Shown piece by piece: positions 105 through 64,000 of a stretch of DNA of 64,000 nt. How positions within the stretch are numbered: position 1 is the first letter of the stretch; every line of letters starts with the position of its first letter. The translations under genes were made by a program, and so were the position numbers. The stretch comes from Sphaerolaimus hirsutus (lineage: Eukaryota; Nematoda; Chromadorea; Monhysterida; Sphaerolaimidae): the NCBI GenBank assembly GCA_964036195.1, contig OZ038451.1:12776529-12840528 (forward strand), written 5' to 3'. The notes under the pieces are model-generated. The model was given only the letters and a program-made list of their open reading frames with translations, made no database searches and was not told the origin of the DNA.

Positions 105-3100
105 CTGTAACGAGTGAGCGAAGGTGCATTGGGCGCCCCTTGGACACAGCCTGCCCGTGGTCACGTCGCGGCACATCGACGTCTTGTATCTGTACGACGA
201 GACTGACATGGGCGTCGGAGCCGATCCCAGCCGGTTCCGCTGCGAGTCCACCTGCACGTACGGGTGCATTCTTGTTGATGGATGGATGCACACGAACAGC
301 GTTTTCAACCCAACTAGGGGTTTCGAATGGGGGGGGGGTAACCCGCCCAGCTATCTAATGGCAAATATTTTGGCTACCATCCCCCTGAACCCCTGCCCCG
401 AAATCGCACAGCTATATAGCTATTTGGGGCGATTTGAGAAAATTTAACCAAAGTTTTGCTCAAAATCGCTAATTTTTTAGATAGACTAAATTTAGACATT
501 TTTGTAGATTTTCCCTTCAAAATTACTAGTTCATGTGCTTATGTACCTATTTTCACCTACTTTTAGCAATGCTTTCCCTTTTTTCTTGTTTCAAACCTTG
601 AAAACACGTATATATTGAACCCCCACGAACCCCCCTCCCCATAAGAAAATTTATTTTCAGCTATCTATCCTTTCGGAGGAGCGATTTGCTATCTATCCAA
701 TCCCACGGGGGGAAGGGGGGGTCAAAATTCAAGATACCCCCGAAAACAACAGATTGATGAAAAACTACAACCTGTTGCACTGCAACCTCTCCCTGAACAA
801 CTCGGTCGGGTCTGTTCAACGCGGCGGCGTGAGCGGCGGCGACCCTGTCCTCGCGGCACTGCGGCTTTCGACGGGCGCAAAATCGCACCTGGCGCTCGAC
901 GATGCGTCGGGCACAAGCGCACACCTCGGCTAGCTCCGCCCACGACGGGGCGCACTCTTCCTTGCGATCGTCCGTGCTCGGCGCTGAGAGGAGGGTAATA
1001 GGAGAGTGCTCAAGAGATGTTTACACGGCCTCGTGCAGGTACGTAGCCAGGATTTTTGAGCAGGGGGGTGGATTGTATACGGAGCCCAGCGAACGGGAGG
1101 GGCGGCGCACCCCCCTAAAATCTGACCCCTGTGGTTAAAAGGAATGGCGCCTTGGCGCCAGCGCCATTCGTAAGCGCCACGCCATGGCGCGATTGGCGTT
1201 GGCATTGGCGCCAAAAAGTGATGTACATGTATGTCTTTTACACACACGCCAATTTGCAGATAATTTGAGCCTGTCGTTCAACACTTGTAGGCATTTGAAA
1301 ACGAATTTCAGTTTTGGGAATTTCCGTAGCGACAACTGAAATTCGTTTTCAAATGTTTATAGGTCTCGAACGGCAAGCTCAAATTATGTACAAATCGGCA
1401 TTGTACACTTAACTAGTGAGCACACTTCACTGCTTTTTCTTGCAGATATGGAACTTTGTTCCGGAATTATGGAACTTAGAAATTGCCCAATCAGTTTTCA
1501 AACGAGCACTTGCAAACATACTCTGCGCGGCGCCGTTGAAGTCGATAGTGGCACATCGCTCGAAGTCGGGTATGAGTTCACTGAAAGAGTCAGGGTCGCT
1601 GGTCCTTTGCAGCGCGATCACCAACTCTTGAATAGCAGCGTTGTACGTTTGCGCAGTTTGCAGCTGTGTGTGAAACGCGTAATTACGTGAAAAACGATTG
1701 AGGATAAGTGCGCGAAAAATAATAGACATTAACACGAAATCACGAAATAGTGAATAGCGTTCTAAAAATCGATCCAAAATCAAATTCCAAAAAAGGGGTT
1801 TATATTTTATAAAATAAAAATATATAAAAAATCTTATATTCATTTTTATATTCTGCTAGGTTTTCCAGAGAGATTTAATAATATATCTTTTATGAGAAGA
1901 AAATATAAAATATAACTCATTTATATTTTCTCCAGTCTCTTTTCCAGAGAGATTTAATTAGGTATATTTTTGAGAGATTTTCTGAGATTATATTTCATCA
2001 TATCTTCTTTAAAAAATTTTTTTTAAACGCAAACCGTGAACACAAAACCAAGCACAATTGCCAAAACCGCCGCACCTTGTCCATGATACTCTGCATGTGG
2101 CTGCGATGCGCCTGGTCGCCGTACAGCAAACTCGACCACTGATCGGGACTGATGCGCAGGCCCGCCTCCATCGCAATCTGCACAATTTGCGCGTCGTGTT
2201 CGCGTCGCAGCGCTTCATAATGACGAAACTCCTCCTTCAGCTGCATCAGCGACGACTGGCCGTCGCGTTTCACTACCTGCGGAACGCGGATGAAATGACG
2301 GAAGTCAACTATTAAGTTCCAAGTTCAAGTTCAAGACTTCAAGTTTCCAAGTCAACTATTAAGTAGGGCGAGTAGTAGGTTGGATCGGAACTATTTAGTT
2401 ATCCCATCCCGCCTGGCAACTCAGAGTGGGGATGGCCGCAGTTTTTTGACCATTTTTTAATAAAAAATGTTTTTCAAAACCTATTTTTCACGTATGCCCT
2501 GCCCAGGGCTGGCGGGGGCACAATATATAGGCTTTTTCAAGGTTAAGAGGGCAGAAAGGGGAAAAAATCGCTAATAATCAGTTAAAAGTAGCCAAAAGTA
2601 GGTTTCAAATGGCTAAAAATAAGTATATAACCATGTATATAGCCGGACAGCACGATTTTGAAGATGAAAAACTATAAAAAGATGCGAAAATTAGTGATTT
2701 TGAGCGAAAATTGGGGCAAAATTTTTCAAAAACCACTCCAGATAGATAGATAGCTGAGCGATTTGGGGGGGGGGGGGTCTTTGGGGGTAGTAGTCAAAAA
2801 TTTTGCCTCAGGATAGATAGATAGCTGAGCGACCTCCGGGATAGATAGATAGCTGGCCGATTTGGGGGGCAGCCCCCCCCCCAGCCCCCCCTAGGAGACC
2901 CCTGGCCCTGCCACATACCTTCGGTGTGAAACATCACTACAGCTAAGTCCAACTGTTATAGTTGGACGTTTGGAAATAGTGTATACGTTGTCTCACAACC
3001 ATAATAGGGAGGTTTAAAAAACGATGTTTTTTATTAAACAGGGTCGTTAAAAAACTTTCTTTCGTGCCTAACCCAGAGGCCCAAAATCGGCTATACCCCA

Positions 3101-6100
3101 AAATCATCACCAAATAAAACGCACGTTGAAACAGCTGGCCCTGTACAAAAGTTGTACCACATGGCCCACGCAAGTTTTGCTTGCCTGCGGGTAGTCTTTT
3201 TCCAAAGTTTGCACAATATACATGACCAGGTTTTTGCGCGCAATCGACGCCCCTTCGCCCAGTGCCAATAGGATCAACTTCAAAACTTCCTCTTGCATGG
3301 CTGAAATGTAGGGTTCAAACGATATATCGTATGGAATATCGAATATCGGATATCGACCATTTTTTAATATCGAATATCGAATATCAATATCGAAAAATTT
3401 TAAAAAATATCGAATATCGATATCGAAAATTTTGAAAAAATATCGAATATCGATAGCGAATATCGACCATTTTTTCGATATATCGAACCTGTATTGTCCC
3501 CAAATTTACTTTTCATTTTCATTTTGAGATGTTTATGGTTGATCTGATGTGCTTATAGTATTGTATTTGATGAGTAAAAGTACAGTATTTATAATGTAAT
3601 TGTTGTTGGAGTGCTAAATTTGAAGCCAGAAAACGCTGATATACTTTTTTTTGCAACATGCCCTTAAGCAATTAGGTTAGGATGAACTGTAATATCTACC
3701 AATTGTTATTTGTCTGATACACTTTGATTCATCATGTTTTTCTTCTATTTTCTACCATTGAGTGATGTAAAGCTTGTTAATATCACTTGCACCATTCAAA
3801 TTTCAGTAAAGAGATGATTAAACATGTGTGCAACCACATGAAAATACAATATGCCACTTAAAATATGCCTTGCTATACCAAAAGCATATCGCAATATCGA
3901 ATATCAAAAATATCGAAATATCGAATATCGACCATTTTTCAATATCGAATATCGATATCGAGGTTCCATATCGTATCGATATCAAATATCGAGTTTCAAA
4001 AAAAATATCGAATATCGATATCGAAAATTTTGAAAAAATATCGAATATCGAAAAGTCATATCGTTTGAACCCTACTGAAATGTTTAAAGGTGCCCTAAAT
4101 TTAAAGGCGCTGTAAAAATAAAGGAACAAGGCGTAGGTTTACCACGTCGAACCTACCTGGACCAAGAAATTGGCACCCTCGCGCGCGCACGGCCGTCCAT
4201 AAACCGGCGCTAATGTGTGAAGAATTCTGGTGCAATAGCAAAACTTCTACCAGTGCCCTTTCAGTCAGTGAGCGACAAGCCCTGTACGCTTTTGTGCGAC
4301 CTGCAACGGCGCGGGGTTGGTTGAAAAAAGGGGTAAAACAATGTCAACTCAAAAAGCGGTGACGAACCCTCAACCTCAAAAAGTTGGCAGCAAAAGAGCG
4401 TCATCAGCTTACGCTGCATAGCGCGGGTCGCCTCGACCGAACCTTGAATGACACAGGGTATTCATACGCTTCTAGGCAGACTAGGCAATGTATACTGAGC
4501 GGAGCGCATACTCTGCGCAGAACCCTACCATGATTTAATGAATAAAATCTTGTGAAAAGTTTCGTAATTTATTATTCCACACTAAAACCGAAATATCATG
4601 ATGGAAAACTGTAGAATTTTTGTGCATTATTCAGATGTGTTATGGTAAGTCTCCGTGCAAACTGTGATGTCCACCGAGTATACATCAAATAATCAATGTA
4701 AAAGACTTCAACCAACTGGCTTGCCAGGAGTGACGTCTGACATAACGCGCGAGCGAGACCAAATCGCTGACGACTCTGTCGCAGTGCGGCCGATCGCTAG
4801 GCGCCACCGCCGCACTCAGTCGACTTTCGTGCGCTTCCAAGTCAGATCCGCGTCTGCGCAAATGAGTTGTGCGAACGGTGGGGTATCCAGAAAATGCTTT
4901 TTTGTAAAACCATCTACCGCAAATCCTTGAATAACTCCCCCGTTGGCGAGGTGAGGAAAAAATAAGTACCCTTGAATAACTCCCCCGTCATGATGAAAAG
5001 GATACAATACAAAAATACAAAAAAATGCAGCGACAGCACATAAATATGTGACAGGGACGTATCCAGGATTTTTGAGCGGGGGGGGGGGGCTGCTTGTTTA
5101 CGGAGGCCGGCAAGGGGGGACCCCCCTAAAATTTTAGCTAAAGTGGCGGAATGGCGCTGGCACCATTAGTAGACGCCACACCATGGCGCTATTGGCGTTG
5201 GCGTCAGCGCCATGGAACGCTGTATATGTATGTAAATATACATACAGGGGTGGGCATCTTCAGTTACCGCTGGGAAAATGCGATAGATTGAGCTACGGTT
5301 GAGCTATCAGAATGAAATTTTAACACAATGGAGTAGACTCCATAGGACACCTATTCTGAAGTTTGCAACCCAAACGGCCACATTTTGGGTGAGTTGTGGA
5401 ACACACGGTTTTTAGTGTAATTTTGTGACTTGACGTCACCCATAGGATAAATCGAGGGTGGCATTTGAGGGGGGGGGGCATCGGTCGTTGGTGTCGTCCC
5501 ATTCTGTCGTACATCGGCCGATTTTGATGCCCTTTGAGTATGTTGTGGTCGCGCCTACTACCAAATTCTTTTTTTACTCGAATAGTCCCCCAGTCCCGAG
5601 ATAAGGGGGGTGAAGTCACAAAATTACACTAAAAACTGTGTGTTCCACAACTCCTCCAAACTGTGGCCGTTTGGGTTGCAAACTTCAGCATAGGTGTCCT
5701 ATGGAGTCTACTCTATTGTGTTAAAATTTCATTGTGATATCTCAACTGTAGCTCAAGCTATCGCGTTTTTCCAGCGGTAACTGAAGATGCCCACCCCTGT
5801 ACAAAACAGCAAAAAGCACAACATTGAGTGTATATACAACGATTTGCGGCCATTTTATTGTTGTTGGACAGTTAAATACCTTAAATACACGAGTTGACAA
5901 ACAAATAACTCCCCTGGGAACTTATTCAAGGATTTAGGTATCCCTTGATAAAAAAACTCCAAAAAAGCTGCCACCCCCATCCACCGACCTGACCAAAGGG
6001 CAATCAATAGCCACAGCCAACACAGCGTCATTAGCGGGCAGCTCGGGCAGCCTGCCCGCGGCGGCGGCGCTCAACTCCGCCTGGTCGACGGGGCAGCGCA

Positions 6101-58192: not shown

Positions 58193-61100
58193 TCAGCATT
58201 GGGCCCTCCTCTTTACTCTGGCTCCAACCCCAGGTAACCCAAAATTGACAGTGTGGAAGCACCTGTAAATAACCCTCTCCGTGTGCCCGGTGTACCTGCT
58301 GCCGATGATAACCGGGGGCATAGTTGCGACAATTTTGAACGCGTTTGTGTTGCTCGGATCGTTGACAATGACAGGGCTGAAAAAGGACCCTGGCGGCACG
58401 ATGACGGCTATGTTGCCGGACTTGGCGCCGGTGCCCTGTGTGTTTTGAGGGTTGTTAAAAGGTATTGGGTCTTCCATAGTCTATTGACGGTACACCTTAC
58501 AATAAAATCTACCATATTCCAACTGAATAAACGAACAGAACAGATATTAATTTTTTCTCATCACATCACATTGCTCCCACTTTTTGTTAATTTGGTGCTC
58601 AATTTTTAAAGTGACCTTATCAAAATATGGTATCCTTCATTGTATAGCGTTATGTCCGACCAGTATGGTTGAGTGAGTTCCAAAAGAGGTGGATAGGGTA
58701 GAGCATGCAACATGCAAGCATGCGGGAAAATTTATGGAACAAGTAGCAGACGATTTCCAAACAGTATTTTGGTTTCTTTCATTCAAGTTTTATGTCAACA
58801 TCCTCATATGGCAGTGAACCTTGTAAATATTTAACCCAATAGAAATCTGGAAATCAGGGACGTATCCAGGATTTTTGAGCGGGGGGGGCTGCTTGTTTAC
58901 GGAGGCCGGCGAGGGGGGGGGGGGCTCAGCCCCCCCCCCCCCCCCCGAAAATTTTAGCTACATAGTGGCTGAATGGCGCCATGGCGCTGGCGCCATTAGT
59001 AGGCGCCACGCCATGGCGCCGTTGGCGTTGGCGCCAGCGCCATGGAATGCTGTATATGTATGTAAATATACATACAAAACAGCAAAAAGTTCAACATTGA
59101 GTGTATTTATAGCGATTTGCGGCCATATGGAGCAAATCTGATGACAATACCTTATGTCTGGTGAAGAATGCGCGCTTGCGCGCAAAATTTTTGACGCTGA
59201 CGTTGAAAAAGTCGCATTTTCCGGTCACTTTCTGGTCTCGCCCCGGGAGGGGGGGGCTGCAGCCCCCCCCGCCCCCCCCCTGGATACGGCCCTGCTGGAA
59301 ATACGTATTCTGAGAAAACAGTACCAAAGTGACAATTAAATCTCTTTTCGCCGTAAAGATATTTCGAGGCAACCGTGTTTCATCAAATAATGTTCTTTGC
59401 CCTTAGCCTTTTTCTGGGTGAATCAATGGGTACATCTATTTTTAGAGTAAATATCTGTTTTATGTTTGATTATCAGCAAATGTTGACAAAATTCATTTTT
59501 CCACTGATCCATCATTTCACCCCGACTCGTTAATTGTTCCCGTGAGAGCAAAGACGGGTCCATTTACATTATTCCACAACACACGGTAGCCCAAATCCAT
59601 CCACAATCACCCCCTCTCTATAATACCTCGTTCCCATCTCCCAGCACCTCATTCTGTTCCACCTCAGCTTGGGGCGGCGGCGCGGCCGTGGTGACGGCGC
59701 AGGGCACTCCGCGCAGCCCGCACGGGTACGCGTGGTAGTACACGGTGGCGCCGATGCGGTAGCACCGGTGCACCGTGTTGTTGGTGACTAGGTTGGCGCC
59801 CACTGTCAGCTCGGTGCCGTCGTCCAGGATGCAACCTGGGGCAGTTGGTGGTTATCGTTGTGGTTTTATCAGGGGTCGTGGGGGCAACACGCTTCAGCTA
59901 TCTATCAATTCCGAGGCAAACTTTTTTGATAATGTGTGTGCCTCTATTTTTAGCTATTTTCACGTATTGTTAGCGATTTTTATCCCTTCTACGCCTTGAA
60001 ATAGTCTATTTTTTGAGCCCCCGCAACCCCCCGACCCCTCAGAAAATGTTGCAGCTAACTATCCTTCCAGAAGAGCGATTTACTATCTATATGAACCCCC
60101 GCAGGGGTCCAAACCTACAAGACCCCTGGCTATATTTTATGCATGTGTGCGTCACAGGCCTCACCGATCGGGCCCCATGCGCCATTTGCATTGCACCGCA
60201 GCTTCATGTGCCCATTGACCCAGGTCTCATTTTCTTGTCTGATCACGCCATCGACATTGCACGCCGTGGCTGTAAAAAATCGGTTAGTAATTGATGGGCA
60301 AAAGTTGGATGGAAGTATGTATTTTCTATTTATTTCGCCCACCTCTGAAGCTGTATTTGACTCTGCCTTTATCATCCACCTTGGCGCATTTGTGTTCCAC
60401 CTAGGGTGTCAAATTTCCGTTTCCGTTTTCCGTTTCCGCCTTTCCGCAGGAAAATTTTTTAACTTTCCGTTTTCCGTTTTCCGGCAGCCGAAAAATTTTT
60501 ACCTTTCCGTTTTCCGTTTTCCGGCAGCCAAAAAAATTTTACCTTTCCGTTTTCCGTTTTCCGGCAGCTGAAAATTTTTTACCTTTCCGTTTCCGTTTTT
60601 CCGGCCCATTTTTCCGTTTTCCGGCTGAAAAATTTTTACCTTTCCGTTTCCGTTTTACCAGGCCATTTTTCCATTTCGGGCTCGATTTTCAGTTTTCTGG
60701 CATTTTTCCATTGTTTTTCCAATCTGTATTTATCTTCAATTGGCTCATTGCATTGTGTTGTTTTTGTCTCTTGGAGCAGCATTGACAACTGGGATTTCAG
60801 GGTCAGTGAAACAGGTGCTGTGAACCCAATATGCTGACACCAATAATTTATTCAAGTTTCATCTGGTTGGTGTTGTGATGCTGTCAATTTGCAATTTTGG
60901 TGTTGATATTGCCAGCATGTCTGTTCAGTGATTTTATTTCATGCCCATTACTGCGACAATTTTATTCACCTTTGGACTCCTGTTGTTTTCTGCTATTTCA
61001 TTCATGACTGATCTGGAGTTTGACAGCCATTCCCTCATGTTCATACAACATTGGTTAAATAAAGCTTTGACTTTGTAATATAGTTCTAAAGCTTCAACTT

Positions 61101-63959
61101 CATTCATGACACTCATGATGAAGTTATCGACATAAATGTTGTTTATTATCATCAACTGGTTTTGTTCCCCTTCATTTTCTTCATATTCATTCATGTTGTT
61201 TATTGTCACATTTAAATGGTATTTTATGACTGCTCCCAAAATTGCTGGGCTGCAGACAAGTCCAAACAGTACCGTTTAAAACAAAGTACTATTAAGTTAT
61301 TTTCAGTTACTGGTTTTGAGGCATCTTTCAGCCAGAAAAATTGTGTGTAGTCTCTAGCTTGGTCATGCAATCCTATTTGCAAAAATGTCTTTTCAATATC
61401 GGCAATTAATGCTAGATTGCCTGCCCTGAACCTCAGGAGTAAGCCCAGTGCTAATGGTGTTGTAATTGGTCCTCTAAAGAGGCACTCATTGAAACTGGGC
61501 TTACCTGCCGACCCATTGTACACGATTCTGCATGATGTCGATTTGCCCGGCGTGATTACTGGCTGGTGTGGCAGGTAATGAATCCCCTTGTTGTCTGTTT
61601 TGTTGTCACAGATCTCAATTATTCCCTTTTCTAGTTGGTCGTCCAAAACTTTCCGGTATTGTTCAAATAAGTTTGGATCTTTGTTGAATCTTCTTATCAG
61701 TGATTTAAACTGCACCAAGGCTTCTGCTTTTCCCGTGGGCAGGTCACTGATACTCTATTTATACAGCCAGTCAATATAGTATTGTTTGTTGTTGTCGTTG
61801 AATTTTATGCTATTTATTATCATCTCCTCTGCAATGTTGTCATCAATTGCATAGGGGTCATCAGTGATCCCCACTGCTTCTAGACTGTGAAATTGTTGTA
61901 GTGTTTCCTTTCCTATGGCCACTATGGCTACTTTTTGATGATTTTTTGTTGGTTCAGTTAAGCTTGAACTACAAGTGAAGTTACAGGCATGATCCATAGT
62001 TACAGAATGTACAGCTACCACAATCAAAGCCAAACAAGTAAACCTGCATGCAGGTTTTCCTTCTGCAAATTTGTCTATTACCGTGCTAATTTCACTTTAT
62101 TTTTTTCCGTTTCCGTGAAAATTTTGCTTTCCGTTTTCCGTTTTCCGGCATTTCATTTTTCTGTTTTCCGTTTTCTGGCCGACAATTTCTTTTTACCTTT
62201 CCGTTTTCCGTTTTCCGCTGAGTGAAATTTTTTTACCTTTCTGTTTTCCGTTTTCCGGCAGAAATTTTTTTTTTACCTTTCCGTTTTCCGTTTTCCGTAA
62301 AGTGAAAAATTTTTACCTTTCCGTTTTCCGTTTTCCGTAAAAAAAATTTTTTGACACCCTAGTTCCACCATGCCAACTACGACAGTTTCGTCCACAGGTA
62401 ATGTTTGTTCTTTGCCCTCATCATCGTAATACACACATCCTGCGAAATGTATTTTAGTTTTTGCATTGTTTTAGTTCGCGTTGCATTGCACTTTCCCTTC
62501 ATCTCTTGGTTTGACATCAAACGTGCATTTTTTGAAAAATTGAAAACACACCAATAATATCGTAGCCCCAGTCATTGCAGCGCATGGTGAAGTGTCCATT
62601 GCGGAATGTGTCGTTCAGTCTCAGCTCCTTCCCGGCTACTATACAACTCGGCTCTGCGTTGATAGGTGTCTCTATCTATGTTTGGCCTTACTTTTTACCT
62701 ACAAAAAATTGCTGGAACCTTGAGTATATTTGATTGTGCTGCCGGTGTGCTCGCATTTGTGCCAAAATCCATTCACTTCCAATGTTTCATTGATCGCGAT
62801 TTCGGCGTAGTTCGCCCGGGGGCTGCCGATGCAACCTGAAAATGAATTGTACCCGATGACAAGAGGAACAGTTGTACAGAACAAGCCAAAATGACGGCCC
62901 AGACACTAGTTGACACGTGTGTGTCAACTAGTGTGTAGGCCGCCAATGGGTACGAAGTTACCAACCCAAAATCTTGACAGTCCCATTGTTGCACTCGTAC
63001 TTCCACCTGCTGTCGATCCACTGCTCGCCGCTCATGCGCAAGCCTCCGATGCTCAACATGCACGGCCTGGCGTCGGTGCCCGACTTGGACACGCCCACCA
63101 TGCCGCTGGTGAGCGCCGAGGCGGGCGCCGGCTGCACGCCCATTACGGGAACTAGCTGGATTTGACCGGTGGGACCTGCGCGGTGATGAGGTTATTGTGT
63201 TGATGAATTGTAATTGGGACCTGTTGTCGCTAGAACACAGCGAAGCATGTGCTCGTGAAGCGCACTGAAGTGGTCTGAAGCGCCTCCCGTGATCACACTT
63301 CAGAACGTGATCACGCCTAATCACCAGGCACTTCACAGCCCATGATTACAGTTCAGAGCTTGATCATTCCTGATCACAGATGGAATGCACTTAACCGCAC
63401 TTCACGACGTTTATTATTATACTAGGCGGACATGATACTGTGCCCTCGCACTCATTTATGAGTCTCACGTTGGAAGCGTGCAAATGATAATGAAGCATGC
63501 GATTTTTGTATAAAATATAAAAAATCTTTGTTGTGAACGTATAGCGTGTTATAACAGAGATAACTTGTTCAACTTTTTATGAAACTCGCATGCATAAAAA
63601 ATAGTTGGCACGCTTCCAGCGAGAACCATGCGTGCAGGGTGTAAAGTAACTGGAGTATACTAGGTAAATTGTGTACATTAAAAAAATCTGAGATTGGTGA
63701 AGTGCATTGAAGTGTGTGTGAGTGTTGTCACCAGCAGATCACCAGCACTCTTTTTGTTGTTCCACCGTCCTATTTATCTCTACAGTAGTTATCCTTTCGT
63801 CTGGGTCGCACCACTGCGCTGCATAAACCTCTGGACAAGTGAATTTTAGAAGGAAAAACACTGACTGAATGAGAAAAGAACAGCGTCTGAGGGATTCAGC
63901 TGGGCCGTGGCTGAGTCTGCTAGCAGCGCGCATGCAACAGCTACGATGTTTAGAATCAT
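58193..63959 (-). CDS. Secreted cysteine-module protein, MIG-18-like (fibronectin type I-like) family
   Basis: Predicted extracellular-matrix protein. Exons: 63959-63866, 63830-63743, 63175-62966, 62835-62719, about 62658-62560 (ends GATATTATTG), 62439-62369, 60400-60343, 60269-60165, 59835-59627, 58435-58193. Signal peptide MILNIVAVACALLADSATAQ. Repeated modules of 45-60 residues follow, each with G-C..G...-T..NG-x-[WFH]..-[KR]C (GCIGSPRANYAEIAINETLE, then VNGFWHKCE; LRLNDTFRNGHFTMRC; VVGMVEHKCAKVDDKG; VIRQENETWVNGHMKLRC). This pattern resembles nematode abnormal-cell-migration-18-like proteins. The last exon is a cysteine-poor tail ending in a basic stretch. The exon 63743 to 63175 junction does not close in phase, so one exon is probably missed. 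A single ancestral exon is split by the 60402-62361 transposon. Confidence 0.62.
58857..59294. mobile_element. Family E element, full-length reference copy
   Basis: GGGACGTATCCAGGATTTTTG at the left, CTGGATACGGCCCTG at the right. Contains GGCGCCAT repeats, the TGTATGTAAATATACATACA palindrome, GCGCGCTTGCGCGC and long G/C runs. In the intron between the last two exons of the MIG-18-like gene. Confidence 0.85.
59870..60128. mobile_element. Family F element, short
   Basis: CAGGGGTCGTGGGGGC left, CAAGACCCCTGG right, with TCAGCTATCTATC inside. Confidence 0.7.
60402..62361. mobile_element. hAT-like element with TTTCCG-satellite arms and retrotransposon cargo; forms an intron
   Basis: Termini TAGGGTGTCAAA and TTTGACACCCTA. 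A perfect 8-bp target duplication GTTCCACC lies at 60394-60401 and 62362-62369. Both arms are arrays of TTTCCGTTTTCCGGCAG-like repeats (60412-60700 and 62100-62345). The middle holds a BEL/Pao pol fragment. On the gene strand the host codons read ATG, then GTGGAAC plus element plus CCCTAG, then GTGGAACAC. GT-AG splicing (62368 to 60401) therefore removes everything and restores the frame. Confidence 0.93.
60934..62033 (-). pseudogene. BEL/Pao retrotransposon pol fragment captured in the element
   Basis: Three open stretches in order on the minus strand: 62033-61755 (pre-RT linker with LEAVGITDDPYAID), 61718-61224 (reverse transcriptase start with LEKGIIEI, RIVYNGSAGKPSFNECL and ALIADIEKTFLQIG) and 61239-60934 (palm continuation IYVDNFIMSV, then MREWLSNS). 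There are frame breaks between the pieces, and no LTRs, protease, RNase H or integrase are visible, so it is a decayed internal fragment rather than a working element. Confidence 0.88.
62896..62941. mobile_element. Family C micro-element, 46-bp perfect palindrome
   Basis: GGCCCAGACACTAGTTGACA and TGTCAACTAGTGTGTAGGCC with six bases between; an extreme deletion derivative with only termini left. In intron 62836-62965 of the MIG-18-like gene. Confidence 0.85.
63240..63412. repeat. GAAGTG/CACTTC and TGATCA repeat block
   Basis: Alternating GAAGCGCACTGAAGTGG and CACTTCA modules with GTGATCAC and TGATTA palindromes. Related CTTCACGA modules occur at 25840-26090. Probably another foldback family. 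Confidence 0.5.
63417..63664. mobile_element. Family H2 MITE
   Basis: TATACTAGGCGGACATGATAC and GGAGTATACTAGG ends; TCACGTTGGAAGCGTGC and GGCACGCTTCCAGCG inside. In the intron after exon 2 of the MIG-18-like gene. Confidence 0.7.
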
Positions 63960-64000
63960 GGTGAATTTGCTCGAAAATGTCGTCTGAAATTGAGAAGGGT

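Follow-up and report, generated by a model that had tools for sequence, protein, structure and literature searches.

A split exon in a gene with three Fn1_2 domains

The minus strand of the window, the whole 64-kb stretch of DNA that was analysed, carries a gene whose exons A1 to B3 (Table 1) join in phase 1. The repeated exons of the gene itself served as a guide for setting the exon ends by eye, and a script then checked them. A likely signal-peptide exon was placed by eye near 63960, and the product is probably a secreted protein. Exon B2 is in two parts: on the minus strand its translation runs to ...VVVGM at 62369 and resumes with VEHKCAKVDDKG at 60400. The two parts are separated by an element whose terminal inverted repeats (TIRs) match each other at 12 of 12 positions and which is flanked by a perfect 8-bp target site duplication (TSD), GGTGGAAC on the gene (minus) strand.

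The preliminary description of this DNA placed the element, its TIRs and its TSD correctly to the base (60402-62361, with TSDs at 60394-60401 and 62362-62369). It had also claimed that no residue is lost between VVVGM and the point of resumption, and this was borne out. Joined at the TSD, the two halves of B2 give 129 nt of open frame, and the joined coding sequence contains three Fn1_2 (PF23003) stretches (E 2.2e-22, 79.4 bits vs. a Pfam cut-off of 27). The joined sequence also matched PF25451 below threshold (E 0.0047), which is probably due to chance. Without the join, Fn1_2 was matched weakly and below threshold by pieces of the gene (E 0.00028 and 0.017), and not at all by one frame of the gene strand. 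At the position corresponding to the B2 split, the paralogous half-exons B1 and B3 run on without a break, and B1 aligns with B2 free of gaps up to a conserved HKC. In a search of the whole genome, the joined 129-nt exon matched its own two halves at the 60343-62439 locus and nothing else. It thus yielded no empty allele and no paralogue, and an empty-site paralogue or second haplotype was rejected on this ground.

Table 1. Positions in the window of the host gene's exons, the inserted element and the candidate intron.
Feature	Position	Strand	Remark
Host exon A1, 210 nt	62966..63175	-	
Host exon B1, 117 nt	62719..62835	-	
Host exon A2, 102 nt	62552..62653	-	second Fn1_2 domain, first half
Host exon B2, portion preceding insertion	62369..62439	-	
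Host exon B2, portion following insertion	60343..60400	-	
Host exon A3, 105 nt	60165..60269	-	third Fn1_2 domain, first half
Host exon B3	59618..59835	-	includes stop codon
Non-autonomous hAT-type element, 1,960 bp	60402..62361	.	TIRs, TSD, at least 40 genomic copies including itself
Left TIR, TAGGGTGTCAAA	60402..60413	+	read from sequence
Right TIR, TTTGACACCCTA on +	62350..62361	-	read from sequence
TSD copy, GTTCCACC on +	60394..60401	.	downstream copy for the gene; from sequence
TSD copy	62362..62369	.	upstream copy for the gene, contains candidate GT donor; from sequence
Left subterminal array	60417..60663	+	TTTCCG/TTTTCCG repeats, period about 40 bp
Right subterminal array	62118..62340	+	same orientation as left array; purine-rich in gene sense
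176-aa ORF within element	61224..61754	-	BEL/Pao likeness from motifs only
Candidate GT-AG intron, 1,968 nt	60401..62368	-	donor ATG/GTGGAA after 62369; acceptor CACCCTAG before 60400

A search of three ORFs of the element recognised no transposase. Its interior holds the 176-aa ORF, whose motifs we take to be reminiscent of a BEL/Pao reverse transcriptase. This ORF matched no Pfam family and gave chance-level matches in NCBIfam (far under the cut-offs) and in the PDB (best E 0.26); it is possibly a captured retrotransposon fragment amplified along with the element. No further exact copy of the TIR occurs elsewhere in the 64-kb window, and nothing in the window matched Rfam.

A family of hAT-type elements in the genome

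The element belongs to a family with at least 40 copies, itself included, in the genome from which the window comes (348 Mb in 762 contigs; 41 matching pieces), a lower bound since the best candidates alone were scored. The 39 others are 93-99% identical to it. With at least seven of eight matching letters required, an 8-bp TSD was found in 36 of the 40 copies (33 perfect, 3 with one mismatch) and was absent from four (L002, L048, L066, L067). The exact 12-letter end TAGGGTGTCAAA occurs 8,431 times genome-wide vs. 31 for its reversed control, and the longer end TAGGGTGTCAAATTTCCGTTTCC 1,498 times vs. 0. The copies, the TSDs and the excess of ends mean that the element is not a chance pattern. 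In two regions a flanking sequence recurs together with the TIR at four places separated by short intervals, GTTCTGAA on C7 (28.54-28.64 Mb) and GTTTTGAA on C1 (27.31-27.58 Mb), which suggests local duplications that carried the element with them.

Among the 40 copies, the window's element has 5 private substitutions in 1,960 bp; it differs from the column majority at 34 positions and from its nearest sibling by 1.2%. We take the insertion to be young, because its TSD and TIRs are perfect and its private substitutions so few.

The preliminary description had called the element hAT-like, and we concur. hAT transposons make 8-bp TSDs, have short TIRs with a T/CAGGG-like start and prefer nTnnnnAn as a target. 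The 8-bp TSD is perfect at the window site, TAGGGTGTCAAA has the expected start and is short, at 12/12, and 53% of the 72 TSD strands (36 TSD-bearing copies) have T at position 2, with an equal share for A at position 7, which fits the hAT preference. Genome-wide there are 28 matches to the hAT dimerisation domain PF05699, and the surroundings of five were inspected. An TTGACACCCTA end, preceded by TTTCCG repeats, lies near three of these five (L072, L073, L075). For these three and L074, the 700 bp downstream of PF05699 were examined, and L074 had no TTGACACCCTA end in that interval; the fifth (L071, on C7) had no such TIR within 7 kb.

The best of these PF05699 matches (C4:15146639-15146860, 65.5 bits) falls inside a related element whose TIRs are of the same type. 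There, GTTGTGAA follows one end and is repeated exactly before TAGGGTGTCAA (C4:15147317-15147335), which by arithmetic puts the relative at C4:15146117-15147327, 1,211 bp with PF05699 enclosed. It may derive, by internal shortening, from an element with a transposase. Judged from these sequences, the TIR/TSD type is linked to the hAT dimerisation domain in a relative rather than in the window's element itself; a full-length autonomous partner of the element was not found.

Geometry and strength of the candidate intron

The boundaries of the interval between the exon halves read ATG/GTGGAAC ... CACCCTAG/GTGGAAC, and its removal restores the exon and the reading frame exactly. The reading we favour, and consider very probable, is that a non-autonomous hAT-superfamily transposon recently inserted into exon B2 of the gene with three Fn1_2 domains, and that the duplicated target formed a GT-AG pair by chance. 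The TSD starts with GGT, so that the GT of its first copy and the (T)A/G at the second junction make up the pair, and removal of the interval between them would leave the exon as it was. The proposal that the donor GT lies in the first TSD copy, and that the acceptor combines the element's TA with the G of the second, therefore holds on paper. The element had also been presented as a ready-made, frame-perfect intron: the GT-AG geometry is indeed exact, while its use as an intron is a prediction.

The candidate splice sites were compared with those of the host gene itself and of a p23-like gene. The matrices and the U1 5′ end used here are vertebrate-style and fit the gene's own donors poorly. 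On these matrices the candidate donor scores -1.45, inside the span of the five donors of the host gene (-4.33 to 3.49, two of the five lower) and below the donor, placed by eye, of the p23-like gene (0.88). Its pairing energy with the U1 end is -4.6 (-4.1 to -8.9 for the five own donors, -0.6 for the p23-like gene). The candidate acceptor, at -4.12 on the vertebrate-style matrices, does no better than the lowest-scoring of the eight reference acceptors that were deduced (-4.15 to 3.23; six from the host gene and two from the p23-like gene), and it reads TAG where all eight of these read CAG. Sites scoring at least as well as the candidates are common, both within the element (17 of 71 GTs, 29 of 114 AGs) and in a 4.5-kb stretch (49 of 220 GTs, 69 of 259 AGs). 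Were the element flipped, the acceptor would score 0.13; given this, and since the pyrimidine-rich strand lies opposite to the gene sense, the element sits in the less favourable orientation.

It should be noted that the deduced native donors after 62966, 62719, 62552, 60343 and 60165 (GTTGGT, GTTCCA, GTGTGT, GTGGGC and GTGAGG, respectively) are far from GTAAGT, as is the donor GTGCGT of the p23-like gene, which lies near 12.2 kb. The genome may be tolerant in what it accepts as a donor.

According to the preliminary description, any hAT-type element ending in TA could form such an intron at a target starting with G. This is wrong, as GT at target positions 2-3 is required too: exact excision using the element's A in the acceptor requires the target GGTNNNNN. 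Genome-wide, 218 of the 8,431 exact TIR ends (2.6%) have this target (control 0). Among the 72 TSD strands about half start with G, four start with GGT and none contains AGGT. The preferred target is GTYNNRAC (G1 51%, T2 53%), from which exact excision gives GT...TA, not GT...AG. The competence to act as an intron thus seems to be owed to chance at this one target and not to be a property of the family. With GGT at so few ends, its presence on the coding strand here is mildly unexpected by chance and makes a modest point for survival by splicing; this argument is post hoc, and it loses weight through the selection of the case by eye, partly for its GGT.

Other insertions of the family were surveyed for exons at 55 sites, comprising 35 of the other 39 copies (the four without a TSD were dropped) and 20 of 30 GGT loci (the ten without a partner end in reach were dropped). 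The survey gave 52 spanning ORFs of at least 60 aa, and this detection of coding sequence is weak and largely uninformative. From the 52, three were searched against Pfam in usable form (L003, with its N-terminal part trimmed, L059 and L061), together with a spanning frame of lesser length at L032 and, from upstream of the insertion, two frames at L014 and one at L034. None of these frames reached a family cut-off, L061 giving one sub-threshold match (DUF7169, E 0.025). With coding detection this weak, a single other plausible exonic copy was seen among the 55 sites, at L003, and it lacks Pfam support. The L003 copy (G000:C6:25204635-25209610) is 1.4% different and inserted at locus positions 1506-3468, at the start of a long ORF that may be a coding exon. 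Its TSD on the likely coding strand is CGCCCACC, with GGT antisense, so exact splicing by this route is impossible there.

Fate of the transcript and relation to known intron gain

The spliceosome may use the candidate pair in at least some transcripts, and we put the chance of this clearly below even. A plain loss-of-function or segregating insertion, with transcripts that retain the element or terminate inside it, seems to us a serious possibility, a little under even. The insertion is young, with its perfect TSD and TIRs, and the candidate acceptor is weak; read-through would add 31 residues after VVVGM up to an in-frame stop at about 62275, dropping the remainder of domain 2 and the whole of domain 3. 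Against a null allele, exons A1, B1, A2, A3 and B3 are open and undecayed with consistent junctions, but so recent an insertion would leave little time for decay anyway; the rarity of GGT, for its part, speaks slightly for rescue. The earlier statement that this site shows the birth of an intron is accordingly unsupported, with a weak candidate acceptor, a young insertion and a segregating null allele possible.

Exon skipping is also conceivable, and we think it unlikely. With the insertion, B2 grows from its 129 nt to some 2,100 nt, so that exon definition might fail and A2 be joined to A3. The lengths of A1 (210), B1 (117), A2 (102), B2 (129) and A3 (105) are multiples of three with phase-1 junctions, so skipping would keep the frame at a cost of 43 codons. 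It would however remove the second half of an Fn1_2 domain, including the cysteine of the conserved HKC, and the product may be unstable. Doubtful, and less probable again, is the idea that the TAGGGTGTCAAA hAT family acts as an opportunistic introner, with GGT exonic insertions persisting through exact splicing. Finally, an ordinary older intron at the B2 position, later invaded by the transposon, has nothing in its favour and is ruled out by the structure of the site, since one TSD copy and the element are all that separates the exon halves, the TSD is exonic on both sides, and B1 and B3 are intronless at the aligned position, B1 aligning gap-free with B2.

Returning to the favoured reading, that of a recent hAT insertion with a fortuitous GT-AG pair, a close precedent is maize Ds. 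Ds in Adh1-Fm335 is reportedly spliced out of the message (Dennis, 1988), Ds1 is said to be alternatively spliced from exons (Wessler, 1991), and a de novo intron is reported to have been created by Dissociation (Giroux, 1994). As here, the insertion is a non-autonomous hAT-superfamily element in an exon, an intron there and an intron on paper here; splicing from the message is reported for maize, whereas for the window's element it is predicted. Reports of maize Ds as an intron are cited in PMC3260210 and PMC3443670.

Introners, as described by Gozashti et al. 2022 (PMC9860276), have 5 to >2,000 intron copies per genome per family. They resemble the present element in being non-autonomous DNA transposons; in some families one splice site is provided by the TSD and its counterpart by the element, mostly with no change in mRNA length. 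They differ in that we find one clear exonic copy among 56 sites and a preferred target that is non-GT-AG. The word hAT is absent from the main text of that paper.

A 2012 review (PMC3443670) includes transposon insertion with a duplicated AGGT protosplice site among the mechanisms of intron gain. As indirect evidence it tabulates 35 events, from Oryza, Drosophila, Oikopleura and Zea, and under in vivo demonstration it enters 'No'. There too, TSD-duplicated target bases serve as splice sites and the gain is precise, but both sites come from the duplicated AGGT, whereas here the AG would straddle the junction, its A being the final base of the element and its G the initial base of the TSD. For Amoebophrya, PMC7789003 describes elements in introns that carry inverted as well as direct repeats. 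A literature search with neither the family sequence nor the organism as query returned no report of the TAGGGTGTCAAA family, from which we claim no absence. Intron origin from Ds (hAT) or introners is already in print, and the window site is a candidate further instance.

If the element proves to be unspliced, it is an ordinary recent insertion that disrupts an exon. Spliced or not, the 2.6% of ends provides a concrete rate at which this family would form exact introns by chance. If it is spliced, the site would be a datable hAT intron gain in which the source family, the target site and the origin of the splice sites are all visible, and the 217 further GGT-type ends in the genome would form a built-in test set. 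Were the family an opportunistic introner, the genome would hold a standing set of young polymorphic introns that are at present arising and might be observed while presence and absence still coexist.
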